Source of the DNA: Hyphomicrobium denitrificans 1NES1
GTDB lineage: Bacteria; Pseudomonadota; Alphaproteobacteria; Rhizobiales; Hyphomicrobiaceae
Direction of reading: 5' to 3'
Length of the DNA: 64,000 nt
Assembly: GCF_000230975.2 (NCBI RefSeq)
Contig: NC_021172.1
Location: 3,658,001 to 3,722,000, forward strand
The notes beneath the pieces were generated by a model. That model made no database searches and was not told where the DNA came from. It was given only the letters and a program-made list of their open reading frames with translations. Both the position numbers and the translations under genes were made by a program. This document shows, one piece after another, positions 8,616-32,719 of the stretch (its first letter is position 1; every line of letters begins with the position of its first letter).

Positions 8616-8661
8616 TGGTGCCGCTTGTGTGACTCGAACACACGACCCCGTCATTACGAAT
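8616..8661 (-). repeat. attL: partial tRNA-Thr 3' half (direct repeat with 32644-32689)
   Basis: Matches the 3' half of the intact tRNA-Thr gene at 44 of 46 positions, from the CCA end through the T arm and variable loop to the 3' side of the anticodon loop. Homology stops at 8662, so no complete tRNA exists here. The two differences (8628 and its partner about 14 bases on) are on opposite strands of the T stem and keep it paired. This is the usual scar left when a tyrosine integrase inserts an element into a tRNA 3' end. Confidence 0.9.
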
Positions 8662-8796
8662 TACAAGGTCTTGCTATTTCATCAGTTTTTCTTTGCGAAT
8701 TTTTCTCCGTCGGTTGTAGCTGAATCAATGTGTTTAGCGCTCTAATTCAACCAATGACTCCGATCCTGTTCTCGTGTCAGGACAGGGAAGCGCGGG

Positions 8797-8884: not shown

Positions 8885-10174
8885 ATGGCGGGGAAATCTC
8901 AACACGTATTGCCGTTCAACAGTCAGGCCGTCGAAAAGGCGGGCACGAGAGACGGCAAGCAAACGGAATGGCGCATTGACGGGGTGCGCGGGCTGACCCT
9001 GATCGTCACTGAAGGCGGGGTGGCCACCTATGCCTATCGCTATCAGGTGAAGCAGGGGAAGAAGCGCAAGTTCAGGACGATCAAGCTAGGCCGTCGCGAT
9101 GCAATCACCCTGCACGACGCGAGGAAAGCTTGCGAGGAACACAGGCGCGAAGTCGAGAAAGGAACCGACGTAGCGTTAGAACGCACCCTGAAGGCGCAAG
9201 AGTTCACGCTTCGGGAGTTGTTTGAAGAGCGCAAAGCCAAAGAAGACAGGCGCGCTGCCTCAACTATGAAGGGCTACGAAGAGATTTTAAAGGCCGATGT
9301 ATTCCCGACCTTGGGCGACATTCCCGCCGCTGACATTAAGCCGGAACAGATTGTCGGGGTTCTGGCGGCAATCGAGGAACGGTCGAAATCCTTAGCACAT
9401 CGGGCACGGTCTGCGCTGGGGTCAACATACCGATTCGGCCTGAAGCGACGGCTCGTAAAGCTCAATCCAACAGCGGGCCTTGGTTTCATCCATGTGTCCA
9501 AGCCTCGGAAGCGCGTGCTGAAGGACAAAGAGATTCGCGCTATCTGGAATGGCCTTAGCGCGTGTGTCGAAGTGTCAGAGCGTATGGCGCTGTTGCTGAA
9601 GTTTTGCCTGCTTACTGGGCAGCGCGAGGCGGAATGTGCTGGAGCACAGTTGAGTGAGTTCAAGCTAGGCACCGCAAATCCGCGCTGGGTTATTCCCGCA
9701 AACCGCATGAAGCGCAAAGAGCGGGATCAGTATGTGCCGCTCAACTCTGAAGCCGTCGCAGTGATCGAAGCCGCAAAGAAACTCGGAACGCGTGGCGGTT
9801 ATCTGTTTCCGGCCGACACGGACAAGATAAAGCTGATCGAAGACGAGAGCGGCAAGATCGCACGGAAGAAGCCAAGAACTCCGCACATCAACCGCGAGAG
9901 CATGTCCCGAGCAATGGCGCGGCTAACGTCGAAGCTCAAAATCAACGACGCACACGGACACGACTTCCGCAAAGCTCTAACAACTTGGATACGCGAGAAC
10001 GGACATTCCAAGGACGTGAGCGATTTGATTTTGCACCACGCCAGCGGAAGCGTAACGGGCTCACACTATGACTTCGCGGTTCTCGACGGGCCGGTGAGAA
10101 AGGCACTTCAAGCATGGGCAACACACGTAACGACACCACGTCAGAGCGCCGAAATCAGAAAGTTGACAGCATAA
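8885..10174 (+). CDS. tyrosine integrase of the element (P4-like, DUF4102 N-terminus)
   Basis: A 429-residue site-specific recombinase that inserts and excises the element at tRNA-Thr. Residues ~10-100 form the DUF4102 arm-binding domain (IDGVRGLTLIVTEGG, YRYQVKQGKKRKFRTIKLGR), followed by a core-binding SAM-like domain (LRELFEERKAKEDRRAASTM) and a catalytic domain. The catalytic set is visible: Arg247 in LLTGQREAE, HxxR at His359-Arg362 (GHDFRKAL), His in LILHHASGS and the nucleophile Tyr395 in SHYDFAV. The start is the ATG at 8885. It is the first gene inside attL, as usual for this class, and reads inwards. Confidence 0.95.
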   Translation: MAGKSQHVLPFNSQAVEKAGTRDGKQTEWRIDGVRGLTLIVTEGGVATYAYRYQVKQGKKRKFRTIKLGRRDAITLHDARKACEEHRREVEKGTDVALERTLKAQEFTLRELFEERKAKEDRRAASTMKGYEEILKADVFPTLGDIPAADIKPEQIVGVLAAIEERSKSLAHRARSALGSTYRFGLKRRLVKLNPTAGLGFIHVSKPRKRVLKDKEIRAIWNGLSACVEVSERMALLLKFCLLTGQREAECAGAQLSEFKLGTANPRWVIPANRMKRKERDQYVPLNSEAVAVIEAAKKLGTRGGYLFPADTDKIKLIEDESGKIARKKPRTPHINRESMSRAMARLTSKLKINDAHGHDFRKALTTWIRENGHSKDVSDLILHHASGSVTGSHYDFAVLDGPVRKALQAWATHVTTPRQSAEIRKLTA

Positions 10175-14128: not shown

Positions 14129-14477
14129 CCCAACCGCGCGCTCATCCGTGCACCCGTGCATCTGCGCCCAACCACGCGCAATCGAACAGAAACGGGGTCC
14201 ACAGACTCATTTGCGAATTGGACGGGGAAATGCCAGCCGAATTAAACCAGCCGCCCACGACTCTCCTATTGCGAATATGAATCGCAAATACAACGAGTGG
14301 ACAATTCTGTTGCTGCCGAATCACATTCGACGCGCCAATTCGGGCAGCGGGCGTAAATGTCCCCGACTTATCACCGGAAGCGCGTTATATATTAGGAATG
14401 GATTAACGGCACAGCAAATCACACCCCGCGATTAACGGGGCGATATACGGGTCACTTTCACAACAAGTCACGGGGAT

Positions 14478-15584: not shown

Positions 15585-15594
15585 CAGGAGTAAA

Positions 15595-15813
15595 ATGGAA
15601 AAAAGACATGGACTGCCCGCTGACTAGTGGCTTTCAACGAAGCAACTTGCAGCGGTCTACGGTGTTGCTACCGGCACCGTGAATATTTGGCGTTATCTGC
15701 GGGGCTTTCCTGAAACCGCAGTACAGAAATTTGAAGGTCGCGTTTTTTATTATAAGCCTGCCATTGACGAGTGGCGCAAGACTCGACCCCGCGCAACTGC
15801 CCGCGTAGCGTAA
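15595..15813 (+). pseudogene. AlpA/MerR-like HTH gene with an in-frame amber codon
   Basis: A 72-codon frame starts at ATG 15595 with AGGAG in the right place. Codon 11 is TAG (15625-15627). After it the frame continues as WLSTKQLAAVYGVATGTVNI, then WRYLRGFPETAVQKFEGRVF and YYKPAIDEWRK, the standard pattern of excisionase/AlpA-type HTH proteins that bind DNA. No alternative start keeps the first HTH helix. Either the gene is inactivated, or the amber codon is suppressed, or the base is an error. Neighbouring genes use TAG as a normal stop (for example 10562), so general recoding is unlikely. Confidence 0.7.
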
Positions 15814-15915
15814 CGGTCAACAACAACACTACCCCCCAATTAGAGACTTCCAAACTTGGCGTGCCATCCCGGTCCGTCGGGTGATGTGCGTTGTCACGAA
15901 TAAAGGACTTACGAA

Positions 15916-16299
15916 GTGCCACTGATTGCAATTGATACTAATCAGAATGCTCCAAACGTTACTACGGAAACGGTGCAGTCATCGGGCTTTACAGTGCCCA
16001 AAGTGCTGCAAGAAATATTAGACAAAGAAGGGCCCGATGTTCCGAGGCTCGTGAGAGTACGGCGTCGAGTTGATAGGGTTATGACCCAGGTTGTTGCTCT
16101 AGCCTTAAAGGACGGCGGCGGCGGCGTTGTGCTCAATTTCGAAGATGATGGAGCATTGTTTGGGCTTCATCGCCGACCGGGCATGACAATCACCGCACAT
16201 GGGCTAACGCCACAACGGTTGCGTCGTGTACTGATGGTTGCTTGCGATGCACTTGCGAAAGCCCAAGAGGAAATTTCCAACGAAGGCTTGCGCGCGTAA
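15916..16299 (+). CDS. hypothetical 127-residue protein
   Basis: GTG start with AAGGA upstream. The chain contains a basic helix (RLVRVRRRVDRVMTQVVALA), a Gly stretch (KDGGGGVVLNFEDD) and a C-terminal helix (RRVLMVACDALAKAQEEISN). No domain was recognised. It lies two bases before the primase-helicase gene and is surely co-transcribed with it. Confidence 0.6.
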   Translation: MPLIAIDTNQNAPNVTTETVQSSGFTVPKVLQEILDKEGPDVPRLVRVRRRVDRVMTQVVALALKDGGGGVVLNFEDDGALFGLHRRPGMTITAHGLTPQRLRRVLMVACDALAKAQEEISNEGLRA

Positions 16300-16301
16300 C
16301 A

Positions 16302-18752
16302 ATGCAAACAGAAAAAGTAAAAGTCACGAGTTCGTTAAACGGCGAAGCTCAGCGTTTCCTTGCATTGCTCGCGCCTGAAGCCAAGGAGTTTGATTGGCGG
16401 TTCATTTTACCCGATAGCCGATTAGACGATATCGGAACCGGCCTGAAGATCATCAATCAGCGGGGAAGTGCAAGATTTTCGAAAACTGCGGCACAGACTG
16501 CAAACGAAAAGGGATATGGCGTCTTCGTCACTGTGAACGAAACAGACGGCGCGGGTATCAAGGCGAAGAACATAACGCGTGTAAGAGCAGTCTTTGCGGA
16601 CTTCGACGACGGTCTTCCCGATCAGTTTCCATTGCAGCCGTCTATGATTGTGCAAACGTCGCCCGGCAAAGCGCAAGTCTATTGGCTGGTCGAAGACGAT
16701 ATGGCTCCGGCGCAATTCGCGAGCATAGAAGCGCGCCTTGTTCAAACTTATAACGCTGACAAGAACGCCAAAGACATAGCGCGTGTCCTTCGCGTACCGG
16801 GGTTCATGCATACAAAAGGCGAACCATTCCCCGTCAAACTTGTTTCTCCAAAGAACGGCAAGAACGCGAAGCGATACAATACTCGCCAACTTCTTGATGC
16901 CTTTCCAGCAGTTGCCACGGAACGGAATAGCCAGCGTCCGCGCAATATTGAAAAGTTCGCCATAACGCTGGGCGTCAATGCTTTCGATACCGAGAAAGTT
17001 CAGGCCGCTCTCGCCTTCATTCCTAACGGTGACCGTGACGAGTGGCTTAAGGTCGGCATGGCTTTGCACCATGAAACGGGTGGTAGCGAACAGGCTTACG
17101 ATTTTTGGGTGCAATGGTCGCGAACTTCGCCCAAATTCAATGAAACTGATCAGCGTGCAAAGTGGCTATCGTTCAATCCTGAAAACTACGACGGCCAGTT
17201 GATGAAGCTCGGGACGCTGTTTGCGTTGGCAAAAGAGCACGGATGGAAGCCGCCACAACGGCGCGAACTTATAATTGTCCCTCTCGAAGTTTCTGAGAAA
17301 GTCGCCTTCGACGAAAGCGCATTGGAGTGGGGAACCAAGCTTTGCCGCGAGAAGGCTGAAACCAAAGGCGATTGGGACGCAGACGAGCTTGGCGAACTCA
17401 TGCAGCGTATGAACGCGGACCATTCCGTTGTTGATATCGGCGGCAAGGTTCTCGTCACAAAGGCGGAAGCAAATCCGCTTATTGGAAATCAGATTGTATT
17501 CATGTCTACGGAGGCCGCTCGCCAGAAATATGGTGCGGTGGTTGTCGGTGGCACGGAAAATAGGCCGATCACTGCATTCAATAAATGGGAGCGTTGGCCC
17601 GGGCGGCGCTACTACGAAGGCGTTGGGATGTTTCCGGGTTCGTCTGTGAAACCATCAATCGTCCAGAGAAATTATCTAAACCTTTGGGGTGGCCTTCGGA
17701 TCACGCCGCGTAAGGGTGATTGGTCGCTTGTCAAACAGCACATGCTGATGATGTGCAGCGGTAATGAAGACCATTTCAATTGGCTTCTTGATTGGAATGC
17801 GCAGCTTATACAAGAGCCACAGAGGAAGCCGGGTTCTGCAATCGTGCTGCGATCCGCTCAGAAGGGCACAGGCAAATCTATGTTTGCAGGCTTCTGGCAG
17901 AAAATCTATGGGATGCAACACGTCGCCACGGTAACGAATTCTGATCAGATTGTTGGCCGGTTCAACGCCGTCATTGGGCAAAGCGTGTTGGTGTTTCTTG
18001 AAGAAGCGAGCTGGGGCGGTTCGCGCGCAAGTGGCAACGCTTTAAAGGAACGCATTACCGGTGCGACGACGACGTTGGAACGGAAGGGATTAGACCCGAT
18101 CACGCAGCCGAACTATGCGCGACACTGGTTCAATAGTAACGAGGATTGGATTGTTCCGGCTGGCACGGATGAGCGGCGCTACTTCATTGCCGACTTCAAC
18201 TTTGACCGCGCTAACGACCGTTCCTACTTCGACCCAATCTTTCGACAGATGTATGACGACGCCGGTGTTGAGGCGATGGCGCATGAACTGCTGGATCGAA
18301 AAATTGAGAGCGATTTGTACACACCGCCTGCCACCGCTGGACTTGAACGGCAACGGGAGTTCTCATTGAGCGGTGTTGAGCGGTTCTTGTTCGAAACGGC
18401 GAAGTCCGGGCAGATACCAAGAGACGATCTTTCAAGTTTTGCCCATGACCTCGGAACTTCTTCAACCGTCGTTTCCACAACCGCCGTTCAAAACACGGCG
18501 CGAGGTTATTGCGATGAATACGAGGGGCGTGCGCTCGATACTCGCCTTGGTATGATCCTCTCGGAAGTGGGTGTGCTGAAAAGCATGAGAATGGCTAGCG
18601 GTATGCGACGTTACCACTATGTCTTCCCGCCAATTGATGAGTTCAGAGCACGAGTTTCCAAGAAACTAAATTTGCCGATCACAATTTGTGAACCATTAGG
18701 GCATGAGGCTAACTTACGTGGCTCGAACGAAAACCAACGTGATCAACTTTGA
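16302..18752 (+). CDS. RepB-type primase fused to SF3-like helicase (DUF5906)
   Basis: 816 residues; the element's replication enzyme. Residues ~40-220 form a RepB/AEP-type primase domain (RVRAVFADFDDGLPDQF with the metal-binding Asp pair, PSMIVQTSPGKAQVYWLVED, DIARVLRVPGFMHTKGE). A PriCT-2-like domain follows at ~225-305 (ALAFIPNGDRDEWLKVGMAL). The C-terminal helicase has Walker A (QKGTGKSMFAG, about residue 520), Walker B (SVLVFLEEASW) and a sensor-like HWFNSNEDWIVPAGTDERR. Start at ATG 16302; an upstream in-frame ATG would overlap the previous gene. The architecture resembles P4-alpha and NrS-1-like proteins. Confidence 0.9.
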   Translation: MQTEKVKVTSSLNGEAQRFLALLAPEAKEFDWRFILPDSRLDDIGTGLKIINQRGSARFSKTAAQTANEKGYGVFVTVNETDGAGIKAKNITRVRAVFADFDDGLPDQFPLQPSMIVQTSPGKAQVYWLVEDDMAPAQFASIEARLVQTYNADKNAKDIARVLRVPGFMHTKGEPFPVKLVSPKNGKNAKRYNTRQLLDAFPAVATERNSQRPRNIEKFAITLGVNAFDTEKVQAALAFIPNGDRDEWLKVGMALHHETGGSEQAYDFWVQWSRTSPKFNETDQRAKWLSFNPENYDGQLMKLGTLFALAKEHGWKPPQRRELIIVPLEVSEKVAFDESALEWGTKLCREKAETKGDWDADELGELMQRMNADHSVVDIGGKVLVTKAEANPLIGNQIVFMSTEAARQKYGAVVVGGTENRPITAFNKWERWPGRRYYEGVGMFPGSSVKPSIVQRNYLNLWGGLRITPRKGDWSLVKQHMLMMCSGNEDHFNWLLDWNAQLIQEPQRKPGSAIVLRSAQKGTGKSMFAGFWQKIYGMQHVATVTNSDQIVGRFNAVIGQSVLVFLEEASWGGSRASGNALKERITGATTTLERKGLDPITQPNYARHWFNSNEDWIVPAGTDERRYFIADFNFDRANDRSYFDPIFRQMYDDAGVEAMAHELLDRKIESDLYTPPATAGLERQREFSLSGVERFLFETAKSGQIPRDDLSSFAHDLGTSSTVVSTTAVQNTARGYCDEYEGRALDTRLGMILSEVGVLKSMRMASGMRRYHYVFPPIDEFRARVSKKLNLPITICEPLGHEANLRGSNENQRDQL

Positions 18753-20132: not shown

Positions 20133-20163
20133 GAGGGCCGGATGCTGGAAACATCCGACCCTC
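20133..20163 (+). terminator. hairpin between genes 19753 and 20202
   Basis: GAGGGCCGGATG (20133-20144) pairs with CATCCGACCCTC (20152-20163) with one mismatch and a seven-base loop. The sequence after it (ATTTGATT) is only weakly T-rich, so termination is plausible rather than certain. The hairpin lies before the ribosome-binding site of the next gene and rules out an upstream start for it. Confidence 0.5.
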
Positions 20164-20201
20164 ATTTGATTCAACCCCTGTCTCAAGCAGGAGCTAAACC
20201 C

Positions 20202-21371
20202 ATGACTCTTCCTAGTAACATTGCGTTAACTTGGCAAGCTAAAACGGCTTACGCTTGCACTGCACTTTTCTCGCTCGCATCGATCAGCACGAACGCCGTT
20301 TACGGTTGGTCTAAGGGCGACACGCTGCCATCACAAATCATTTGGGCAGTCCTTGCTATTGCGGTTGGCACGACTCTTTTGCTTGCGACCGCTGCACTTT
20401 TCAAAGCCTTGGCCGCTAAGAGCTACGGGCACGCGACCTTCATTGCGTTGGGCCTTGCGCTCTGTGCCACCTATAGTGTGGTTGCGGCTGTCGGTTCGGC
20501 CACGGGTCAAAGAATGTCTGCGGCTCTTTCCGAAGATAGCGCCGCAAGCCATCGTACAGACTCACAGAAGGCCATTAGTGAAGCTACCGCTCACCTATCG
20601 CAGCTCCCTGAGAAACGGCCTAGCAGCGCAATAGATGCTGAAATACAGGGCATCCTGATAGACCCGAAGCTTGAAGGCTGCAAAGAAATCAACGGGCCTC
20701 GCACAAGGGAGAAATGTCCCCATGTTGCGGAGCTTCGGAAAGACCTTGCGGAAGCCCAAGCGACAGAGATTGAGCAACGGGATTGGCAAGGCAAGCTCGA
20801 TACGGCTCGGACTGAACTAGCCGCACTCCCGCCGCCCCGCGTCGTGAACAGCGATGCGCGGACCCTTGTCTCGTTCTTGGCAGCACTTGGCTATTCCGTA
20901 ACGGTCGCACAGGTGAACACGGCGTTGGCTCTGTTGTCAGTGCTACTTATCGAATTGGGCGGCTCGGTGAGCTTGGCAGTCGGGATGGCCCTAAGTCTTC
21001 CTGAAGGGGATTTCGGAAAGCCTGTTTCCCAAGAGTCCGCGAAGGAAGCACAAGTCCCCTCGTCGTCCGCTACGCCCTTGTTATCGCAGGCACGCAATGC
21101 TGACGGCTCTTTGAAGGGGCTTCAGGAAGTCGAACGACAAGCCCCTGTCACTCCCTTGCTGAGCGTTCGCGAGAGACTTTTGTCAGAAGTTAACACTGCA
21201 AAGGGTGGATTGCGTTCAACGTATGAAGGGCTTGGGAAGCGATACGGAGTCACTGCAACTCGTATTGGCCAGATCGTTCGGGACTTAAAGAGGGACGGAG
21301 TTGTCCGCGTCAGAAGTTCGCGGAACGGGACGACGATTGTGCCCGCTCTCGGGATCGTAACAGCGGTCTAA
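20202..21371 (+). CDS. membrane protein with C-terminal winged-helix DNA-binding domain
   Basis: 389 residues from ATG 20202, which has AGGAG eight bases upstream. The N-terminal ~115 residues hold three to four membrane helices (AYACTALFSLASISTNAVYG, IIWAVLAIAVGTTLLLATAA, ATFIALGLALCATYSVVAAV). A charged helical segment follows, then another hydrophobic stretch (ALLSVLLIELGGSVSLAVGM). The last ~70 residues form a winged helix (LGKRYGVTATRIGQIVRDLK, then RDGVVRVRSSRNGTTIVP). A membrane-bound DNA-binding protein could tether the element's DNA or sense the envelope. No family name known to me. Confidence 0.65.
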   Translation: MTLPSNIALTWQAKTAYACTALFSLASISTNAVYGWSKGDTLPSQIIWAVLAIAVGTTLLLATAALFKALAAKSYGHATFIALGLALCATYSVVAAVGSATGQRMSAALSEDSAASHRTDSQKAISEATAHLSQLPEKRPSSAIDAEIQGILIDPKLEGCKEINGPRTREKCPHVAELRKDLAEAQATEIEQRDWQGKLDTARTELAALPPPRVVNSDARTLVSFLAALGYSVTVAQVNTALALLSVLLIELGGSVSLAVGMALSLPEGDFGKPVSQESAKEAQVPSSSATPLLSQARNADGSLKGLQEVERQAPVTPLLSVRERLLSEVNTAKGGLRSTYEGLGKRYGVTATRIGQIVRDLKRDGVVRVRSSRNGTTIVPALGIVTAV

Positions 21372-22633: not shown

Positions 22634-22732
22634 GTCGCGCAAACGCGAACACGTAATCTTTCATACAGACATCTAATGTTGCTCCGTGGCCATTCGGTCG
22701 CGCGAGCTTTTTTGCTTTCAGACACAGGGAAG

Positions 22733-25700
22733 ATGACAGACAACGTAGACAAACTACCGGGCGAACTCGCTCGCAATCTCGCAAAGTACCAAGAAGACAT
22801 GACACCCGAAGAGGGCGCGCTTATCCTTGCGCCAACTAATCCCGACGAACTGATTGAAGCGCACAATACCGTAGCGTGGGCTGCTCATTCACTCAGTCAA
22901 GCAGCGATGACTCCCGAAGACCTTGACCCTTCATTTGCTGAAATCGTCGGCGCAGAGTTTCGCCAGCACAACACTATCGGCTCGATATTTTCGAGCAAGG
23001 CGCTCGCAAATGCTTTGTCGGAACAGGACGACTCCCGGCCGTTAACGCACCACGATATTGTGCAGAAGGTGGAAGCCCAAAACTTCCAACCGTACTTCGA
23101 CTATTTCAAAGGTGCGCGGACTGAAGCGGAATTTGATGCCATTCATGCTGACATTGAACGCGAACTTGAAGACAAGCGCATTCAGCAGGCATCGGGTTGG
23201 ACGGGAGCAGCGTTAGGATTTGCTGCCGGTCTAGCCGACGTTCCGACGTTGCTGCCGGGCGGCATTGCGGTGAAAGGCGCGGCCAAGCTCGGAAGCGCAG
23301 CCCGTGCGGCGTTAGAAACTGCGTTGGCCGGTACGCTTGCGAGCACAGTTGGGGAAATCCCGCTTCAAGCGTCGCAGCAACTTCGAACCAAAGAAGACGC
23401 GGCTCTATCTATCGGCTCTGCAACGATCCTGAGCGGCGTTCTTGGCGCAAGCGTACATGGCATCCTTGGCGGCGAAGCTACGAAAGCCATTGATCGCCTC
23501 GATAATGTGAGAGCGGACGCAGCGACGGGCTTCAAGCAAGCGACGACTGCCGGTGCTAAGCAACTCGACATTTACGAACAGACGGCGGCTCGCGGGCTAG
23601 ATGGTCCTGACCGTCTCTTTTCTGGCGGCGCGTTCGAGTCGTTAGAGAAGCTTGGCAACGTTCCGTTCGTCGGTGATCTTCTTCGCAATCCTCGCATCGA
23701 TTCCGAGGGCAGTATGTCCGGTGCCGTTCGTGACATCATTGCCAGGATGACGAACAACCCTTCCATCTCGTCTCAGAATGCAGCGGGCATTGCGTCGAAG
23801 GAAAGCGTTCAAGCAATCATCGGCCGCTATCATGGCGAGTGGGCGCAGGCTGTTCGCGAAGTCAACGAGATTTGGCGTAAGAATAAAGCCGCATACGGTA
23901 ACGACCGCGAAGCCTTCAATGACAAGATTGCCACCTCTCTCGCCAATGGTCAGATGTTCGAAGACCCGGTTATCAATCAGGCCGCACAGGTCATGCATGA
24001 TAGGATTTTCGAGCCGATCAAGAACGACCTAATCAAGAACGGCATGTTCACAGAAGACCTTCAGCCGAAGAACTCGATTGGCTACTTCCCTATTGTGTAC
24101 GACGCCAATCAGGTCATGGCTCAGAAGGGTGACTTTCTATCGTACCATGCTGGCGCTTATCAAAGGGAAATAGAAGACCAAGCCCGGCAAGCACTGATCG
24201 CGAAGGGCGTTAAGGCATCCGATGTTGAAGATGCGAAGATTGCGAACCTTGGCGTTTCCAAAAAGGTGCTGAAAGTTGATGAGAACGGCGCACCTGTAAT
24301 CAATCCGAAGACCGGCAAGCAAGCCATAGAAACTCAGGTTGTGACACCTGGCACTGTTGGCGAAACGCGGGTGGAAGCGTGGAAGGCATTTCAAGCTGAC
24401 TCTGCGCGCATCACTGGCGAACGAGACAAGGCGTTAGAGAGCTTCGATAAGGACGAGGCAGCACCGGCCCCGACCATTGACGCTGAAGGCAACACCGTCT
24501 CCGATCTTCGCCCACATTTTGAGCAGCGCGACAAGATCAAAGATGCGAGGATTAATGCGACGGTTGTTCGGGACGAGAAGCTTCAGGACATTGCCGCACA
24601 GCGCCAGAAGGACGTTGACGAGGTTCAGGATGCTTGGCGTCAGAAGAATATTGAAGGCAGTCTGACTCGCGATCAACGTAGAATAGCAACGCTGGAGCGT
24701 GACAAGCAAATCTCGCGTATCGATGCAGCGGCGGAAAAGGAAGCCGGTCGCGTTCGGAGAGAGACAGAGAAGGAAATTAGGAAGTTTGACGGCCAGCTAA
24801 AGGAAGTACGGAAGACGGTTGTTGAAGAACACGCCGTACGGATCGATGCCTCCCGCACTGAACGTGACAGGCTCATTGCGGAAGCTGAAGACGAAGGGCG
24901 AGCCAATGTCCTAGCCGCTCGCGGCGTGAAGCTCGAAGACGGTGTTGAGAACACACTTAGAAAGTACACTCGAAATGGTGCGATTGATGCTGAGCGTGTT
25001 GCCAAGGATGCAGAAGCGCGAGCACAGGGTCTTTACGACGCCATAACGGGAAAGACGCGGTACATTTTTGGTCACGAGCTTCCAGGTTCGACACGCGGTT
25101 ACTTCAAAGCTCGCAAAAATCCAGCCTACCATACTGACTTGATGGACCGGCGTTGGGTTGTTCGCGATCCTATGAAGCTTTCGGAAATGTACGTTCATGC
25201 TGCCGGTACTGACGCCGCGCTCGGAACGATCTTCAAGAAGTCTGTGCCGAAGATAGGTGATGACGGGAAGAAGCTCGTTGATGAGGCAGGCAAACCCGTC
25301 ATGCACGAAGTTGGTGACGTTGGATTGTCCGAAGCGCTTAAAAAAGTCACGGCCGAATACGACAACTTGCTTTCCAATGTGACGGTGCCAAAGGAAGTCC
25401 AGGCGAAGCTCGAAAAGAAATACCACAACGATCCGGCCAAGCTTGCTGAGAACATGAACGTTGCCCGTCGTGAAGCTGAGAAGAATATTCAGTATCGCCG
25501 TGACAGGGACATTGCAAACATTGAGCTACTTCGCGACTTTGCCCGTGGCGTCCAAAAGAACCCGAGCCCGGCAAGCATCACTCGTGCAGCCGAAGCGGTG
25601 GGCATCTTCAACTACGTCACGAAAATGGGCGGTACGGTTCTTTCGTCTCTCGGTGATCCGATTAACATTGCTCTGTCGCAGGGTTTCGGAAATGCAGTGA

Positions 25701-26902
25701 AGTTCGGGTTGCTCCCCTTAGTTCGCGATATGCGGAAGGCGTTGTTGAGCGGTGACGATGATTTGCGCAGGCTGTCTCGTCTGTCTGCTGCGAACATGGA
25801 ACTTGAGTTTAACTCTCGCATGGCGGCAATGGGCGATCTTGGGAACGTCTATTCCCAGGCGGACCCAATGTACAAAATGCGTCGGATGGCAGAAGAGTTT
25901 TCAAAGTATTCAGGCATCACGTATTGGAACACCTTCGTCAAACAGGTTGCCTACAACACAACGCAGGCTCGGATTGTTCAGAATGCTATGGCCGGTTGGG
26001 CAAAGGCATCTAAGGGCGAACGAGCTTGGATGGCGTCTCTTGGAATTGACGAGGGGCGATTAGCGCAGTTCCGCGATCACTACCTTACGCAGCCTGACAA
26101 CCGGAAACTTGCTGCCGGTATTCCCGTAGCTCATTGGGATACGTGGGCAGATAAGAAGGTTGGTGAGGCATTCCGTCAAGCCGTCTACAACGAGAGCTTC
26201 AACACGATTACGACGCCGACGTTTTCTGATCGCATAGCTTGGGCAGGTTCGCCAGTCGGTCGCACAGTGCTTCAGTTCCGAAACTTTATGATCGCTCAGC
26301 AAATGCGGCTGATCGGGCGAAACGTGCAGCTTGCTTCAATCGACAAACAGTACGCCGCTAACGTCTACACCGGACTTATGGGCCTCGTGTTCATGGGTGC
26401 TCTGATCGATGCAACGAAGCGAGTTGTGAACGACCAAGGTTTGACCGGCACTCGGGGTGAAGACGGCGCTTGGGAAAAGTACGTTCAGGAGTGGCACGAT
26501 AAACCGTCTCAGCAACTTTATAATGCCCTAGATCGTTCGAGCGTGTTTGGTGTTCTGTTCGAGGGCTCAAACATTCTCGACAAGCTCGGCCTTCCCTCTA
26601 TCCAGTCTGCCGGTCGGTTTGTAACTGGCGAAGACAAGGACGAATTGGGCGGGACTTCACGAACTCGGAATGTGAGCACGGCGGGAGTCTTGTTTGGTCC
26701 GAGCCTTGGGCAGTTGGACGATTTGCAGAAGACACTTCGTTCCGTGAGCGACGGTGTGTTTGATCCTGACCACCAGTTGACGAGGCAGGATTACAGGCGG
26801 GCTATGCGTATGATCCCCGGCAGTTCAATCTTCTGGTTGAAGCCTGTCTTGAACGAAGGAGAGCGATACGTCGGGAACGTGATGGATTGGCCACGAAATT
26901 AA
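22733..26902 (+). CDS. very large phage-type ejection/internal-virion or polyvalent protein
   Basis: 1,389 residues from ATG 22733. Residues ~150-250 are Gly/Ala-rich and hydrophobic (GWTGAALGFAAGLADVPTLL, ATILSGVLGASVHGILGG). Residues ~560-745 form a long, charged coiled coil. The C-terminal third (~930-1300) has segments typical of large podovirus internal-virion or LPD38-like polyvalent proteins (YSQADPMYKMRRMAEEFSKY, RIAWAGSPVGRTVLQFRNFM). Such proteins travel in the capsid and enter the recipient cell with the DNA, some forming an envelope channel. No Cys-, Ser- or Zn-protease or lytic motif is obvious. It takes up one sixth of the element although no other virion gene is recognisable. 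Confidence 0.6.
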   Translation: MTDNVDKLPGELARNLAKYQEDMTPEEGALILAPTNPDELIEAHNTVAWAAHSLSQAAMTPEDLDPSFAEIVGAEFRQHNTIGSIFSSKALANALSEQDDSRPLTHHDIVQKVEAQNFQPYFDYFKGARTEAEFDAIHADIERELEDKRIQQASGWTGAALGFAAGLADVPTLLPGGIAVKGAAKLGSAARAALETALAGTLASTVGEIPLQASQQLRTKEDAALSIGSATILSGVLGASVHGILGGEATKAIDRLDNVRADAATGFKQATTAGAKQLDIYEQTAARGLDGPDRLFSGGAFESLEKLGNVPFVGDLLRNPRIDSEGSMSGAVRDIIARMTNNPSISSQNAAGIASKESVQAIIGRYHGEWAQAVREVNEIWRKNKAAYGNDREAFNDKIATSLANGQMFEDPVINQAAQVMHDRIFEPIKNDLIKNGMFTEDLQPKNSIGYFPIVYDANQVMAQKGDFLSYHAGAYQREIEDQARQALIAKGVKASDVEDAKIANLGVSKKVLKVDENGAPVINPKTGKQAIETQVVTPGTVGETRVEAWKAFQADSARITGERDKALESFDKDEAAPAPTIDAEGNTVSDLRPHFEQRDKIKDARINATVVRDEKLQDIAAQRQKDVDEVQDAWRQKNIEGSLTRDQRRIATLERDKQISRIDAAAEKEAGRVRRETEKEIRKFDGQLKEVRKTVVEEHAVRIDASRTERDRLIAEAEDEGRANVLAARGVKLEDGVENTLRKYTRNGAIDAERVAKDAEARAQGLYDAITGKTRYIFGHELPGSTRGYFKARKNPAYHTDLMDRRWVVRDPMKLSEMYVHAAGTDAALGTIFKKSVPKIGDDGKKLVDEAGKPVMHEVGDVGLSEALKKVTAEYDNLLSNVTVPKEVQAKLEKKYHNDPAKLAENMNVARREAEKNIQYRRDRDIANIELLRDFARGVQKNPSPASITRAAEAVGIFNYVTKMGGTVLSSLGDPINIALSQGFGNAVKFGLLPLVRDMRKALLSGDDDLRRLSRLSAANMELEFNSRMAAMGDLGNVYSQADPMYKMRRMAEEFSKYSGITYWNTFVKQVAYNTTQARIVQNAMAGWAKASKGERAWMASLGIDEGRLAQFRDHYLTQPDNRKLAAGIPVAHWDTWADKKVGEAFRQAVYNESFNTITTPTFSDRIAWAGSPVGRTVLQFRNFMIAQQMRLIGRNVQLASIDKQYAANVYTGLMGLVFMGALIDATKRVVNDQGLTGTRGEDGAWEKYVQEWHDKPSQQLYNALDRSSVFGVLFEGSNILDKLGLPSIQSAGRFVTGEDKDELGGTSRTRNVSTAGVLFGPSLGQLDDLQKTLRSVSDGVFDPDHQLTRQDYRRAMRMIPGSSIFWLKPVLNEGERYVGNVMDWPRN

Positions 26903-26923: not shown

Positions 26924-28006
26924 CTAAGGCTGCCTTAACTCCGGAACGCTGTTTATTGGGTAGTCGGTCGTTCTAATAAATTTAAGGGACTCGACTCGGA
27001 TGCCATTCGAGCGATCATCAAGGGTTCGCAACTCAAGTTCAAACTTGTTCGCTGTTTCGGATGATGATTTGGCGAGATCATCAGCTATTTTTTGGAGATC
27101 GGCAGTTGATTTCGCCGAATCGATTTCAGGAGTTGCGTCAGCACCCAACGATGTTTTTAGCATGGAGGCCTGTGAGGCCAGCGTTAAAGCAGAGGCGATC
27201 ACTGTCAAAGTTTGTGAGGCCGCTTGAGCCCGACGCGACCGCTCCAATGCAGCCTGTAGCTGGTTTTCGATTTCGTGAACTTTACTTTCAGTCTCTGCCT
27301 GTTGCCTTTGCAGTTCAGTAATGCGAGCGCGTTCTTCGGCGCTTTTCACCTTATTTTGCATCTGTACCACAGCAAGCTCTAGTGCCCGTGTCTGAGCGGC
27401 TTTGTTTTCAGCGTCTAATAATTTTTCATCGGCAAATCGACGTGCCGTGTCGTTTATAAGTTGTGTAGCTGGTATAGTTGATGCCTTAATTTTGTTCCCC
27501 TCTTTCGAGAACCACAGGAAGTAGGACATCGACCTATCTATTGTTGCCCCGGTGCTCGGAGCAGGGGCAATCGTGTCTTGTTGTTGGGCGGCTGTGTTTA
27601 CAGAAAGTGGCGATGTTCCTGCTCCTACCAGTTGGACGCCGTCGCCAACCACGGAATAAAAGGGCGTTTCACCTTCAACTTTTTGAATATCAACTCGGTA
27701 TAAAACTCCAGTTTGGCCCGTCGTTTTCAAAAGTTCTGCAATATTGTTGTCTTCGTGTTTTAGGTACTTTTGAATGACGTGGCTCAAACCCCACTTATTA
27801 AATGCTCCGGCGGCGGATTGTGCCAACGAAGCGGCGGCTGAAGCTGTGGTGGCACGGGCTGTCATTGATGAAGGCACAGCAAGGCCGTACGGATCAGGAG
27901 GGCCGCTGCCAGTTCCGGAAGTAGCGGCAAAACATGCGTGGGGCGGACCGGCAATAGTGGCAATGAGCACGAAGACGGCAAGCTTAGATGGAGAATAAAT
28001 CATCAC
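26924..28006 (-). CDS. exported coiled-coil protein (Sec), partner of the Tat-exported protein
   Basis: 360 residues. Clear Sec signal peptide (LAVFVLIATIAGPPHACFA), cleavage likely after CFA. The mature part has a beta-rich region (VLYRVDIQKVEGETPFYSVV), a Pro/Thr linker, a long coiled coil (~205-275; AEERARITELQRQQAETESK) and a hydrophobic helix (TLTVIASALTLASQASML). Its start overlaps the stop of the upstream gene by four bases, so the pair is translationally coupled. No family recognised. Exported helical pairs with a hydrophobic segment include two-component pore-forming proteins, but that is only an analogy. Confidence 0.6.
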   Translation of the reverse strand: MMIYSPSKLAVFVLIATIAGPPHACFAATSGTGSGPPDPYGLAVPSSMTARATTASAAASLAQSAAGAFNKWGLSHVIQKYLKHEDNNIAELLKTTGQTGVLYRVDIQKVEGETPFYSVVGDGVQLVGAGTSPLSVNTAAQQQDTIAPAPSTGATIDRSMSYFLWFSKEGNKIKASTIPATQLINDTARRFADEKLLDAENKAAQTRALELAVVQMQNKVKSAEERARITELQRQQAETESKVHEIENQLQAALERSRRAQAASQTLTVIASALTLASQASMLKTSLGADATPEIDSAKSTADLQKIADDLAKSSSETANKFELELRTLDDRSNGIRVESLKFIRTTDYPINSVPELRQP

Positions 28007-29385
28007 GAATACCTTCTAAGTAACTCGTGTAAATTCTGAATACCAACCTCCGCTGCGACGACTGCGTTACTGCCGAGCGCAATCCGGCTCCTTTCAAAGT
28101 TGATTTGATCAATAATTAAGCTCAGGGCATCGAACGTAGCTGACATATCAGTTCGTCTCTTCATCGCTTGCATATGTGCGAGTCTTGCATTCGCGTCAGG
28201 GATACTTGCGGTGTCAATTTGACAAAGCGAATCTGAAGGGACAGCGGGATCACCAGCGTTTGCCCTCCTGTCTGATGCTTTCTCCAAAACAAAATTTAGA
28301 ATTCCCGTCGGCTTGCCGTCAATTTTTAGTTCTTCCTCTTTCAATGTTACATCGAGTGCGAGCCGATCATGGGCTCCGTCGCGAGCGTTTCTTATTTTTA
28401 GACTTCCGTGGCACATCCTTCGCGCGACTTGGTTTGGCTCAGTGAGCGGTGCTGATTGCGGGCGAGAGTCAATCGGATCGAACGAAGCAGCTGGTTTGAC
28501 TAAATTATAAGGTGCCAACTCATTGAATTGATAGCAACCTATATCATCGTTCAGCCACTCTGCGTCGTCGTGGTCATTCACCCCAGTACAAGCAAGTAAC
28601 ACGGAACTGGGGACCATTTTTAGGGACGCTCCGATAGGATTGAGCGATGCAGCCTTCATTTGGTCAGTTAGTCTGTTTTTTGCACTCATAGCGTATGACA
28701 TGGCAGAGTTAGGATTGCTTGGATCAACTACGCTATTGAGCCATGGAAGATAAACTTCGCGTATCGTAGAAGTGATTTCAAAGTTATTGTACCCAAGCAG
28801 GTTTTTTAGGTTCGTCTCTACAAACCCCAAAGGGCAAGCGACAAGAGCTGTTACGGGGTCTGTTAAATTTAAGACATTGACCTGTTGCCGGGCTGATTCG
28901 AGTCGAAAGAGAAGTTGTGAGAACACACGTTGAGTATTCGGATTTGTTCGCCACTGCTCATCGCTGATGGAGGGGTCATGCGATTTAAGCAATTCGACAT
29001 AACCTCTGATAACCGCAAGCAATTCTGTTTGCAGTCGTCGTGTGTCTTGCTGCTTTAGTAACTGATCTATTTGATCCGGCAACTCGTCCAATTTTGTTAG
29101 GACGGCGGCTAGTTCCGTTTGAATCTCGGTGAGCTTCTGAAGCGCAACCTTCAAAAGCTGATAATTGGCGCTGATAATTTCACCAATTCCGCCGTCGCTA
29201 CGATTATTGGCGGCGACCATGCTTGCCACCATCGAAGCAACCGCAATTGCAACTTGGACCCAAGCTTGCGCGAGAGAAGGGAAGAGTGTGAGAAGGGGAG
29301 TACCAACGAAAGCTGCTTTACCAATTGTGCGAGCCGAAAAAATTAACACGGTACTCTTCAGAAACTTTCGGCGGTCCATCGTCAT
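28003..29385 (-). CDS. exported protein with twin-arginine signal, first gene of a coupled pair
   Basis: 460 residues from the ATG at 29385. The frame is open further upstream, but the signal peptide fixes the start: MTMDRRKFLKSTVLIFS carries the Tat motif (Arg-Arg-Lys-Phe-Leu-Lys), with a hydrophobic core and a likely cleavage near SLAQAWV. A short hydrophobic stretch follows (VQVAIAVASMVASMVAA), then helices with heptad spacing (LTKLDELPDQIDQLLKQQDT). The rest is mixed and unrecognised, with four or more Cys residues. Tat export implies folding in the cytoplasm before transport. Cargo gene of unknown role; no toxin or enzyme motif is visible. Confidence 0.6.
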   Translation of the reverse strand: MTMDRRKFLKSTVLIFSARTIGKAAFVGTPLLTLFPSLAQAWVQVAIAVASMVASMVAANNRSDGGIGEIISANYQLLKVALQKLTEIQTELAAVLTKLDELPDQIDQLLKQQDTRRLQTELLAVIRGYVELLKSHDPSISDEQWRTNPNTQRVFSQLLFRLESARQQVNVLNLTDPVTALVACPLGFVETNLKNLLGYNNFEITSTIREVYLPWLNSVVDPSNPNSAMSYAMSAKNRLTDQMKAASLNPIGASLKMVPSSVLLACTGVNDHDDAEWLNDDIGCYQFNELAPYNLVKPAASFDPIDSRPQSAPLTEPNQVARRMCHGSLKIRNARDGAHDRLALDVTLKEEELKIDGKPTGILNFVLEKASDRRANAGDPAVPSDSLCQIDTASIPDANARLAHMQAMKRRTDMSATFDALSLIIDQINFERSRIALGSNAVVAAEVGIQNLHELLRRYS

Positions 29386-29428
29386 GCGATTTTGACCCGC
29401 AAAATAATCGAAGCATTCGAATCGGCGT

Positions 29429-30388
29429 GTGGGGCACTTGAGCCTTTGCCCAGACTTATGGAAAAATAGAAACAAAGTTGTGACTTGTAAAGCAACACCG
29501 ATAACGTCTGAAATCGTGCGGTCAGCGTTAGGAAAAAAGCACATCTTCTCGCTTCGACAACTCGCCAAAGCCATTGGCGTACACCGCGAAAAGCTCCGAA
29601 GAGTCATCAAGGCTGATCCCGCGCTTGCCCGTTTGACCGACCCCATCAGAGGTTGGAACGGGCCACGCGGCGGGCGAACCATTGAAGACCGTGTTGCGAT
29701 AATTGAAGAAGCAAAGCGCGCGGGCAAGGTCCGAACAGTGGCCGACGCACTTATAATCTCGGACATTCATTGGGTTCGGTACAATCAGTATCTAAAACAG
29801 TCCGAGGCATGGCGGCGTGCTTTTGGTGGCATACCGTTCCCTGATCCTCCGCACGCTGTGTATGGCACGGGGCATAGGGCACACGTTCTCTATACGAAAT
29901 ATGTTCGCGAGAACGAGGCCAAGGGGATTGCTCAGCCGGAAGCGTCTTGGGGTGCGCTCGACAAGGCCATGAGGGCCGTTGAAAAACACATAAAGAAGAA
30001 GAACGCTGAATGCCGAAAGCTGAAGTGGGGTGACGCTTCAATCGATGTGCAGAAGAGAAAGCGGCGAGGAAGGAAGCAAAAGTTTTTCACGAAGAAGGAC
30101 GCGGACAAGATCGCGAAGAGAAGATTATCGCACTTCTCAACTTACAACCTCCTTCGCTATCTCGCGGCTAGTTCGGGGAAGACTGTTGACGAGGTGGCAG
30201 CAGAAGGGGCAACGACGGCTCTAAGGAAGAAGTACTTCGCTGCGATTGCCGAAATGCGAGACAAGAAGTCGTTCAAGGAAGCGGTGGTACGGACTGCGCA
30301 GAAAAAGAAAGAACGTGCAGAGCTAGAAGCTAAGGCGGCAAAGTTCAGGAAGAGGCCGGATTTAGTTCGCCATCAATTTTCTTGTTAG
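29429..30388 (+). CDS. putative HTH DNA-binding protein, basic C-terminus
   Basis: Up to 319 residues. IFSLRQLAKAIGVHREKLRR near the N-terminus looks like a helix-turn-helix. The middle has a Trp/Tyr-rich segment (DIHWVRYNQYLKQSEAWRRA), and the last 120 residues are strongly basic (KKKNAECRKLKWGD, KRKRRGRKQKFFTKKDADKI). GTG at 29429 is the longest start; GTG at 29480 is an alternative. It is divergent from the exported pair, with a short shared promoter region, and its stop overlaps the convergent TIR gene by four bases. It may regulate either neighbour. Confidence 0.5.
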   Translation: MGHLSLCPDLWKNRNKVVTCKATPITSEIVRSALGKKHIFSLRQLAKAIGVHREKLRRVIKADPALARLTDPIRGWNGPRGGRTIEDRVAIIEEAKRAGKVRTVADALIISDIHWVRYNQYLKQSEAWRRAFGGIPFPDPPHAVYGTGHRAHVLYTKYVRENEAKGIAQPEASWGALDKAMRAVEKHIKKKNAECRKLKWGDASIDVQKRKRRGRKQKFFTKKDADKIAKRRLSHFSTYNLLRYLAASSGKTVDEVAAEGATTALRKKYFAAIAEMRDKKSFKEAVVRTAQKKKERAELEAKAAKFRKRPDLVRHQFSC

Positions 30389-31330
30389 AAGGGAATTTCG
30401 TCGTCAATATTTACGGGTTCGTCGTGGTCGCCAACCGGGGCTATTCCGGCCAAGACTAGTGCTTTGTTGAGCTTATCTACGAATGATTTATCACCCATCA
30501 GTGCGGGGTACGCCGGTACGTTTTGACGAACTGTTTCCCAGGCATCGCGAGGCACATTCTCTATCGAAGCGAGTTTATCGACCCGAAAAGAAGCAAACGT
30601 AGAGTCCGCTGACGCCGCGATTGTTTTTGATAGACACTCAATTATGCGGTCGCGCGTTTTTGGGCTATCCTTTATCGCTGTAAAGACCTTCTCGGCAACT
30701 TCTACGGCATCGCCGCCAGTCTTCTCAGCTTGAAGCTCTCCTATAAAACCATAGGGGGCCGCGCCTTTGTCGAGAGGAATAATCAATACATCACGGCAAA
30801 CAGCAATTCCTACTTCTTGATCGGTCCAATTGCTCTGGCTGAAGTCCTTCGTAATAATGGCAACAAAGGCATCCATCGAATGCAGCGACCGTAAGATTTC
30901 ATCGCGCCACTTTGCAGACACTTTGATGTCATCGTGCGCGACGAACGAAGAAATGCCATAACGCTTGAGCACTTCCCGCAAATTGTGCGCGCTAGTCTTT
31001 GCGGTGTGAACGTGGCTGATGAAAACTCGGAGATGATCAGTTAGCCAATATTTGCTTTCACCAATCGAGGGCGTATCTGGGCAACGGCCCCTTGATGGTA
31101 TCAAGGCCAAGCTGCTTGGCGACATCAAACAATTGGTCTTCAGTGCAACTGTCCAAGAAATAGCGCGCAAGGCTTTCAGCGTAATAATTTCCGATGTTTT
31201 TTGGTGTGGCCAATCCCATCATTGTGAAGAACGTCAGCACGTCGTCGCGTGTCATTTCTTCGGCAATGGTATGCTGTGCTTGATTGATAGCTCGAACGCG
31301 ATCAATAGGGCGCATTATGCGAAACTGCAC
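30385..31330 (-). pseudogene. TIR-domain protein, frameshifted between N-terminal domain and TIR domain
   Basis: The first frame (GTG at 31330) encodes an ~85-residue helical domain ending GPLPRYA and then stops at 31058. The TIR domain continues in another frame: HLRVFISHVHTAKTSAHNLR, YGISSFVAHDDIKVSAKWRD, FSQSNWTDQEVGIAVCRDVL. In related proteins I recall, the chain runs PRYA-x-x-G-x-x-KYW directly into FLSH, so a single base in the CCC run near 31063 separates the frames. Many bacterial TIR proteins cleave NAD+ in antiphage defence, and Glu in WTDQE is in the expected place. Either decayed, phase-variable, programmed +1 frameshift, or an error. Confidence 0.75.
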
Positions 31331-32074: not shown

Positions 32075-32461
32075 CTAGCGGTCCTTACCTGTCAGCTTCT
32101 TTATATCGGCGTAGCGGTGCCCAATCCGACGCTCACTGATCTGCACGGGTTTGGGAAGGCGACCGTCCTGAACCATGCGCTTGACGGTAGCGACTGAGGA
32201 CCCAAGCATCCTCGCAACCTCTTCGTGCGATAGAAGCTGTTGGGCTGTTTGCTCGCGGGTTTCTGCGGTCAGGTATTCCCCGAGCTTCCGCCACGACGCA
32301 TCGTATGAATTTGCGAGTTCGGCGGCTTTCTCGTCTAACAGGTGATCAAGCACGGGGCGTATGGCTTCGCCGTACTGTTTGATAATCCGCGCTTCGTCTT
32401 GTGCCGGGAGAAGCTTCTCCCGAACCGTTGTCGTCCGCTGCTTATTCCAATCGATCCCCAT
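32075..32461 (-). CDS. AlpA/excisionase-like HTH protein at the right end
   Basis: 128 residues from ATG 32461. The C-terminal 55 residues form a MerR/AlpA-type HTH (LLSHEEVARMLGSSVATVKR, then MVQDGRLPKPVQISERRIGH and RYADIKKLTG). The N-terminal half is helical and of unknown role. Proteins of this type control excision or early transcription in P4-like elements. Its location beside the right arm-type repeats (32534-32559) fits a recombination directionality factor or regulator. The gene reads inwards. Confidence 0.75.
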   Translation of the reverse strand: MGIDWNKQRTTTVREKLLPAQDEARIIKQYGEAIRPVLDHLLDEKAAELANSYDASWRKLGEYLTAETREQTAQQLLSHEEVARMLGSSVATVKRMVQDGRLPKPVQISERRIGHRYADIKKLTGKDR

Positions 32462-32533
32462 GCCCAAAGACTCGGTGATTTGCTCAACTCGAACAAGTCA
32501 GGACGGCTTGATTCAGAAGGGGGTTTTCAGCAC

Positions 32534-32643: not shown

Positions 32644-32689
32644 TGGTGCCGCTTGGGTGACTCGAACACCCGACCCCGTCATTACGAAT
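32644..32689 (-). repeat. attR: 3' half of tRNA-Thr
   Basis: Direct repeat partner of 8616-8661 (44 of 46 identical). It restores a complete tRNA gene after integration. The crossover must lie inside this segment, most likely in or near the anticodon stem-loop, as is usual for integrases targeting tRNA genes. Confidence 0.9.
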
Positions 32690-32719
32690 GACGTGCTCTA
32701 CCGGCTGAGCTAAAGCGGC
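32644..32719 (-). tRNA. tRNA-Thr (anticodon CGT), integration target
   Basis: Read on the minus strand it folds fully. The 7-bp acceptor stem is GCCGCTT/AAGCGGC, the D arm GCTCAGCCGGTAGAGC, the anticodon stem CGTCA/TGACG with loop TTCGTAA, the T stem GGGTG/CACCC with loop TTCGAGT, and the CCA is encoded. Anticodon CGT reads threonine codon ACG. The 3' half (32644-32689) is the right attachment site; the 5' half is original chromosome, while the 3' half was supplied by the element. Confidence 0.95.

Follow-up and report, generated by a model that had tools for sequence, protein, structure and literature searches.

Gene content of the element

We analysed a 64,000-nt stretch of Hyphomicrobium denitrificans 1NES1 (NC_021172.1, positions 3,658,001-3,722,000), referred to here as the window; all coordinates below are positions within it. 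The window contains a 24,028-bp insertion bounded by a 49-bp direct repeat (8616-8664 and 32644-32692, 46/49 identical), in which a single gene was found to encode a virion-type protein. This gene is an intact open reading frame (ORF) of 1,389 codons on the + strand, running from an ATG at 22733 to a stop at 26902 without an internal stop; an alternative upstream ATG at 22676 would add 19 residues. Judged by its sequence, the gene is a homologue of those for T7 gp16-type ejection proteins. Together with ten sister elements, the insertion belongs to a set of recurrent, selected, capsid-less carriers of a gp16-type protein that are most likely podovirus satellites. The features of the element are as follows.

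8616..8664, no strand: attL, partial copy of the 3' part of tRNA-Thr (46/49 identical to 32644-32692)
8885..10174, + strand: tyrosine integrase, 429 aa (PHROG 1, E 2.2e-43; PF00589, E 1.2e-15; PF13356; PF22022)
16242..18752, + strand: primase-helicase (RepB_primase / PriCT-2 / DUF5906), 836 aa from a TTG (PF08707, E 2.2e-18; PF19263, E 5.2e-19; PHROG 1156, E 3.5e-47)
20142..21371, + strand: membrane protein of 409 aa that ends in a winged-helix-like part (both traits judged by eye; relatives in genomes G019 and G067)
22733..26902, + strand: ejection / internal virion protein of the T7 gp16 type without the N-terminal transglycosylase, 1,389 aa, no cysteine (PHROG 342, family hidden Markov model (HMM), T7 region map, cysteine count)
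26924..29766, - strand: two cargo ORFs (360 and 587 aa) without a match in Pfam or PHROGs
30385..31170, - strand: TIR-domain protein, 261 aa, probable defence cargo (PF13676, E 1.5e-14; PADLOC SAVED_TIR, E 3.4e-8, and ThsB, E 1.7e-6)
32075..32467, - strand: excisionase / AlpA-like regulator, 130 aa (PHROG 66, E 3.7e-7; BLASTP to G019, 8e-8, and G067, 5e-5)
32644..32719, - strand: tRNA-Thr(CGT), the integration site, including the attR core 32644-32692 (ARAGORN; repeat)

Virion genes were searched for in two ways. We compared 32 ORFs of the element with PHROGs (some ORFs of 60-64 aa and overlapping ones being left out), and six-frame segments of at least 40 aa with our own podovirus HMMs for the large terminase (TerL), portal, major capsid protein (MCP), scaffold and two tail proteins. 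Neither search detected a second virion gene in the element, and no capsid, terL, portal, MCP or tail gene was found near the ejection gene. Within these searches, the claim of an earlier note on this DNA that the 1,389-residue gene is the only virion-like gene of the element was borne out. The element thus combines an integrase, defined att ends and a replication gene of its own, as expected of a satellite, with no large terminase, portal or capsid set.

The product of 20142..21371 has relatives in G019 (BLASTP 3e-13 and 2e-24 to two ORFs) and G067 (5e-17). The two G019 ORFs overlap, possibly through a frameshift. The first cargo ORF (360 aa) had a single marginal PADLOC match (E 0.0098). The excisionase-like gene adjoins tRNA-Thr, and its product also has a weak match to a PHROG named for the terminase small subunit (E 5e-4), ranking below its excisionase matches. 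The tRNA-Thr and the host-side flank are present in relatives. The same site seems to hold other islands of ~8.6-11.3 kb in four genomes of the same genus (G002, G018, G020 and G003; L140-L143); each has an integrase match, and the G003 island has a primase-like ORF, judged by eye.

Family assignment of the ejection protein

The protein matched PHROG 342 ('internal virion protein with endolysin domain') over residues 909-1377 (E 1.8e-66), with phrog_16310 as its second PHROG match (E 1.3e-61); T7 gp16 itself scored 1,354.7 bits against PHROG 342. It could be aligned over its whole length with proteins from three of the sister elements, from a Vibrio phage and a Manatee Spring podovirus, and from a Paracoccus prophage-like locus, at 23-28% identity and with 37 invariant columns. 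A family HMM was built from the collected carrier loci, T7-like prophage proteins included, and tested on a set of seven proteins. It aligned the focal protein over residues 1-1387, and in the test set it recognized T7 gp16 (residues 292-1280, E 4e-20) and gp51 of Rhizobium phage Pasto (6e-104). Pfam gave nothing credible for the focal protein, and a sequence-profile search of PDB returned chance-like matches only, the best being a ribosomal protein (E 0.003).

Region limits of T7 gp16, taken from PMC8954989, were transferred by alignment: TMH I corresponds to residues 124-249, gp16-C to 259-1192 and TMH II to 1193-1354. Two membrane regions flanking a central core are thus predicted, based on the T7 alignment and hydropathy. 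The T7 transglycosylase (1-156) and the gp15-binding tape (157-228) had no aligned counterpart; T7 residues 1-291 remained unaligned, and no PHROG or Pfam enzyme match was found for an N-terminal transglycosylase in the focal protein. According to PMC8954989, this domain is not conserved in P22 or Sf6 either, and a transglycosylase is not required for membership of the wider gp16-type family.

The earlier note had described a Gly/Ala-rich hydrophobic region, a coiled coil of ~180 residues and a C-terminal third with internal-virion/LPD38-like segments, and had considered an ejection protein or a P1 DarB-like polyvalent protein. The first region was seen at residues 141-260 (33% Gly+Ala), where three of the five top hydropathy windows fall. 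Residues 561-745 have a composition that fits a coiled coil (44% D/E/K/R, 6% P+G), and much of this charged stretch has no counterpart in the other alignment rows. For the C-terminal third, the internal-virion part of the description stood, as did the assignment to ejection proteins of the T7 gp16 kind; the LPD38 part was not confirmed by sequence. An LPD38/DarB polyvalent identity was tried and rejected, with no LPD38 or enzyme-domain match in Pfam up to E = 10. The observation itself is confirmed as more than chance, the protein being a full-length homologue of a phage family and cysteine-free over 1,389 residues.

AlphaFold models of residues 770-1389 (pLDDT 59.8, pTM 0.43) and 52-500 (pLDDT 57.6, pTM 0.37) were mostly helical and weak. 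Searched against viral predicted structures, the C-terminal model gave 15 matches at E <= 0.001. Named among them were the internal protein D of Bordetella phage BB8, an internal virion protein D, a 'large polyvalent protein associated domain-containing' protein (rank 13, E 6.1e-4) and a 'toxin homologue of phage lysozyme' (rank 14); the remaining 11 were uncharacterised or unnamed. The N-terminal model gave four matches at this threshold (one putative internal virion protein, one lysozyme and two uncharacterised or unnamed), and a further polyvalent-named match only at E 1.9. The fold comparison suggested for the C-terminal third therefore speaks weakly for an internal virion protein, since the named viral matches are mostly of that kind, with lysozyme-type names also present.

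Among the phages with related proteins, 49 Vibrio phage records share the ejection protein; those listed are 31-33 kb long and label it 'coil containing protein' or 'hypothetical protein'. A relative also occurs in NZ_OL790812.1, a 4.09-Mb Proteus mirabilis record in a plasmid collection that is probably a chromosome.

Related elements in other genomes

The protein was detected in five of 150 relatives (E <= 1e-5), in 25 of 397 genomes of the order (E <= 1e-10), including three of the five relatives, and in three of 385 genomes of the class, one of them the focal genome. A scan of genome contigs gave seven loci, three of which were new to the set. Among the 25 order genomes, nine had capsid-less elements, 10 had capsid- or tail-bearing loci and six were unclassifiable (G150, G296, G391, G441, G450 and G462; fragment, contig end or disrupted). 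G304 and G339 each hold a second, disrupted locus as well.

In total, 11 capsid-less elements were collected: the focal one, G019 (same genus), G067 (same family), G119, G442, G304a, G339a, G419, L099 (the metagenome-assembled genome of Devosia sp. 67-54), G424 and G459. All 11 have an integrase and an ejection gene by six-frame search. No match to TerL, portal, MCP, scaffold, tailA or tailB was found at E < 0.01 in six frames of any of them; for G459, the search took in 50 kb of ORFs. The sister elements thus do not all carry complete podovirus modules, which would have spoken against a satellite: G019 and G067 combine integrase, primase and ejection protein, while capsid, portal, large-terminase and tail genes went undetected in them, and the same holds for eight more elements. 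To gauge sensitivity, we applied these HMMs at E < 0.001 to 34 IMG/VR contigs with an ejection protein and detected such genes in 29. Of the five contigs missed, four start < 300 bases ahead of the ejection ORF. The remaining one, L160 (IMGVR_UViG_3300044807_000069, 13.3 kb), carries a transglycosylase, an ejection gene and an integrase and looks like another capsid-less element; its upstream 2.1 kb, the place of the tail genes in other contigs of the set, gave no tail or capsid match. The MCP alone was missed by its HMM in several complete prophages, and the absence of capsid genes thus rests on the whole HMM set rather than on one gene.

The elements differ in layout. The focal element, G019 and G067 carry the ejection protein alone, together with the primase and the membrane/winged-helix gene. 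Six of the 10 sisters (G119, G442, G304a, G339a, G419 and L099) have a separate transglycosylase gene beside the ejection gene, and the ejection proteins of G459 (PHROG 4067) and G424 (by eye) have an SLT-like N-terminus. G459 also encodes gp14-like (PHROG 805, 5.8e-25) and gp15-like (PHROG 23202, 1.1e-8) genes. A small terminase gene (TerS) was detected in three sisters: G442 (PHROG 51, 6.9e-39), L099 (PHROG 51, 3.8e-36) and, more weakly, G067 (PHROG 309, 4.6e-15). Direct-repeat ends were found in 10 of the 11 elements, nine of them at tRNA 3' ends, with sizes of 12.2-24.0 kb: G019 22.7 kb, G067 18.6 kb, G119 12.2 kb (a weak repeat, 15/17), G304a 14.9 kb, G339a 15.7 kb, L099 15.8 kb, G424 13.0 kb, G459 19.0 kb and G442 16.3 kb (not at a tRNA). 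No credible att was found for G419, where the best repeat measures 15 bp and has one copy within int. In L099, a second peptidoglycan-hydrolase-like ORF (14210-15850; PHROG 34252, E 1.8e-8) lies downstream of the ejection gene.

Three further loci, G304:C23:220000-279999 (L090, L091, L114), G339:C24:280000-339999 (L080, L081, L113) and G441:C21 (L104, L105, L117), have tail genes and transglycosylase/ejection genes split by cargo, which by eye comprises type I restriction-like genes in G304 and sugar-uptake genes in G339. In G304 and G441, the ejection gene is broken. Searches within 48-60 kb of these loci gave no head, terminase or integrase match; the G304 contig does carry a podovirus portal farther on, at 327882. 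They are either broken prophages or another headless arrangement.

Phylogeny, selection and cysteine content

A tree was computed from the C-terminal regions of 29 classified rows, the unclassifiable G391, G450, G296 and G339b being left out. The capsid-less label required seven changes, of either direction, on this tree (6-7 in bootstrap trees), at least four of which are forced by well-supported branches. The focal protein and that of G019 grouped together (100/99) on long branches (1.02 and 1.57; 1.21 and 1.56 in a tree that included the four unclassifiable rows).

The ejection ORF was intact in all 11 capsid-less elements. In G304a, G339a and G419, the ratio of nonsynonymous to synonymous substitution rates (dN/dS) was 0.09-0.24 for the ejection protein, compared to 0.13-0.29 for the transglycosylase and 0.06-0.10 for integrase and primase. 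One small gene common to the three elements (108-112 aa) had a higher ratio (0.25-0.42). In G304a, the central part of the ejection protein has either diverged or been replaced.

The ejection proteins of the 11 capsid-less elements contain no cysteine in 13,780 residues, and 33 family proteins contain one in 42,207. Control proteins from the same loci had 5.1 (portal), 6.2 (integrase), 7.3 (tailB), 8.0 (primase) and 8.4 (terL) cysteines per 1,000 residues, and the transglycosylase of these loci had 0.45. Given the cysteine frequency of ten other ORFs in the focal element, a cysteine-free protein of 1,389 residues has P ~5e-7. T7 gp16 and gp15 likewise lack cysteine; the ejection-protein review does not mention the residue. 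We simulated the focal and G019 branches (lengths 1.21 and 1.56, and half of these) from a cysteine-free ancestor, with 200 runs per setting. Simulated descendants had a mean of 3.7-14.3 cysteines. None of 200 runs stayed cysteine-free in any of the four settings with 5 or 8 cysteines per 1,000, and one and four of 200 did so in the two settings with an equilibrium of 3 per 1,000. The missing cysteine may thus reflect continuing selection for passage through virion and periplasm.

Alternative explanations

A temperate podovirus could have lost its head, tail and lysis genes by deletion, with the ejection gene as a leftover; we consider such an origin rather unlikely. The family does belong to complete podoviruses, which are present as prophages in the same order and are described in PMC10386132 as vigorous in Rhizobiales, but a two-sided loss sparing the ejection gene, with or without the transglycosylase, would be needed several times, given the at least four label changes. 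Although att sites survive internal deletions, each loss must also remove what borders the module in complete phages, with tail genes on its upstream side and, by eye, a fibre-like gene on the downstream side. Broken prophages with an ejection gene do exist (G339b, G304b and G150), yet the ORF is undamaged in 11/11 capsid-less elements, is under constraint in the three testable sisters and has gained no cysteine; in addition, int, primase, transglycosylase and ejection gene are common to three sisters whose intervening genes differ. Taken together, recurrence, the low dN/dS and the lack of cysteine argue against deletion remnants and for proteins that are still ejected from a helper's particle.

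It is improbable, in our view, that the protein is a domesticated exclusion factor, made in the resident cell to spoil incoming or assembling podoviruses (e.g. as a decoy ejection subunit) outside any transfer of the element itself. Satellites often carry anti-phage genes, and the TIR gene of the same element fits this role. Helper virions might also be poisoned by an ejection subunit that does not match them, but both the membrane regions and the gp16-C core have been retained, and dN/dS in three sisters is low outside the variable middle. Avoidance of cysteine would suit ejection from a virion better than life in the reducing cytoplasm, and six of the 10 sisters carry a separate transglycosylase, useful for entry. 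Exclusion is compatible with a satellite lifestyle, and both can hold.

A large polyvalent protein of the DarB/LPD38 type, shielding incoming DNA from restriction, is highly improbable: the size would suit it and one of the 15 structure matches carries that name, as does the one at E 1.9, but no Pfam match supports it and the whole length aligns with gp16-type proteins.

Proposed mechanism

On balance, we favour the view that the focal element is a podovirus satellite bringing its own DNA-entry protein. Podovirus ejection proteins leave the head, form a trans-envelope channel and are needed for infectivity, according to PMC8954989 and PMC11784390; a satellite that borrows heads could therefore load its own copy. 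The element would integrate at tRNA-Thr, replicate by its own primase and take head, tail and packaging motor from a podovirus helper, and its gp16-type ejection protein would be its sole virion-type product. Made during helper growth, this protein would enter the assembling heads, exit via portal and tail at infection and insert into the inner membrane of the recipient by its two membrane regions, so that the gp16-C core could hold the entering DNA in the cytoplasm. The transglycosylase and the other ejection proteins would be supplied by the helper. Where the ejection protein stands alone, as in three elements, the transglycosylase would have to be the helper's; six others would supply theirs from a separate gene and two in fused form. 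We infer helper dependence, packaging into helper particles and a benefit, be it entry of the satellite or an advantage over the helper's protein.

The availability of helpers was assessed by searching for the podovirus portal (PF12236) in 10 carrier genomes, with positive genomes as a control and the L099 genome left out. Portals were found elsewhere in four of them (G304, G339, G419 and G459) and in G003, of the same genus as the focal one. The focal genome had a single terminase match, at 1906106; this terminase and its neighbours (G000:C1 ~1898000-1910000, L145) resemble a gene-transfer-agent cluster.

Several points weigh against a satellite. No podovirus portal was found in six of the 10 searched carrier genomes, the focal one included, and for the latter a helper would have to come from outside. 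The PHROG scan revealed no convincing TerS in the focal element beyond the weak match mentioned above, and the capsid HMMs cover podovirus-type genes alone. Close relatives of the focal protein were not found in IMG/VR; scans with alignment A3 and with the G442 protein gave no relatives, and the L099 protein gave one locus. Clustering by carrier type on the tree was modest, 50 of 500 shuffles being as low. Stop-to-stop reads of the family in IMG/VR contained 20 cysteines in 43,580 aa (0.46 per 1,000), so that avoidance is strong but not absolute, and the absence of cysteine is inherited from phage ancestors, so that it supports continued ejection only by an argument from time. Both structure models are of poor quality, and a fold search of PDB with the C-terminal model found nothing at E <= 0.001.

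Beyond the focal element, the case is evenly balanced for a new class of satellites, arisen several times in Hyphomicrobiales, that steal podovirus head, tail and packaging motor and encode their own DNA-entry machinery, whereby the satellite controls entry and may handicap that of the helper. This machinery would consist of a gp16-type protein alone, of that protein plus a transglycosylase, or of a gp14-, gp15- and gp16-like set (G459). Satellites are known to act on the size of the head, on the supply of capsids or on the packaging of DNA. If the proposal is true, these parasites would gain a hold on DNA entry, the final step, and deletion of a single gene could be used to test what decides which DNA gets into the cell. 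It would also provide a search rule for unrecognised satellites: an integrase, a primase and a cysteine-free ejection protein, without capsid genes.

Comparison with known systems

The focal protein shares PHROG 342, two membrane regions, a central core and the lack of cysteine with T7 gp16 (internal virion protein D) and other podovirus ejection proteins. In contrast to the focal protein, T7 gp16 has an N-terminal transglycosylase and a gp15-binding tape, and it comes from a complete phage with gp14 and gp15, whereas the focal gene stands alone. PhiGT1-like temperate podoviruses of Rhizobiales (PMC10386132) infect the same host order and may be a source of both the module and the helpers; unlike the elements described here, they are complete, and the word satellite is absent from the text of that paper.

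No satellite with an ejection protein turned up in the open-licence literature searched. The word 'ejection' did not occur in PMC4936722, PMC11389934 and PMC11773190, and no ejection protein was met there in a satellite of the phage-inducible chromosomal island (PICI), Staphylococcus aureus pathogenicity island (SaPI) or P4 type. Charybdis elements (PMC12324425) differ in size (~4.6 kb) and in their likely archaeal hosts. With PICI-, SaPI- and P4-type satellites (in part PMC11773190 and PMC4936722), our elements share the integrase, an AlpA/xis-like regulator, a primase, att sites, a size of 12-24 kb and the lack of a structural set, as well as, in three sisters, TerS. Capsid-forming PICI (cf-PICI) and cf-PISP satellite-plasmids (PMC13230959) likewise supply part of the particle and obtain the rest from a helper. 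These satellites make the head and use helper tails, whereas the elements described here have no head genes and would bring the protein for DNA entry.

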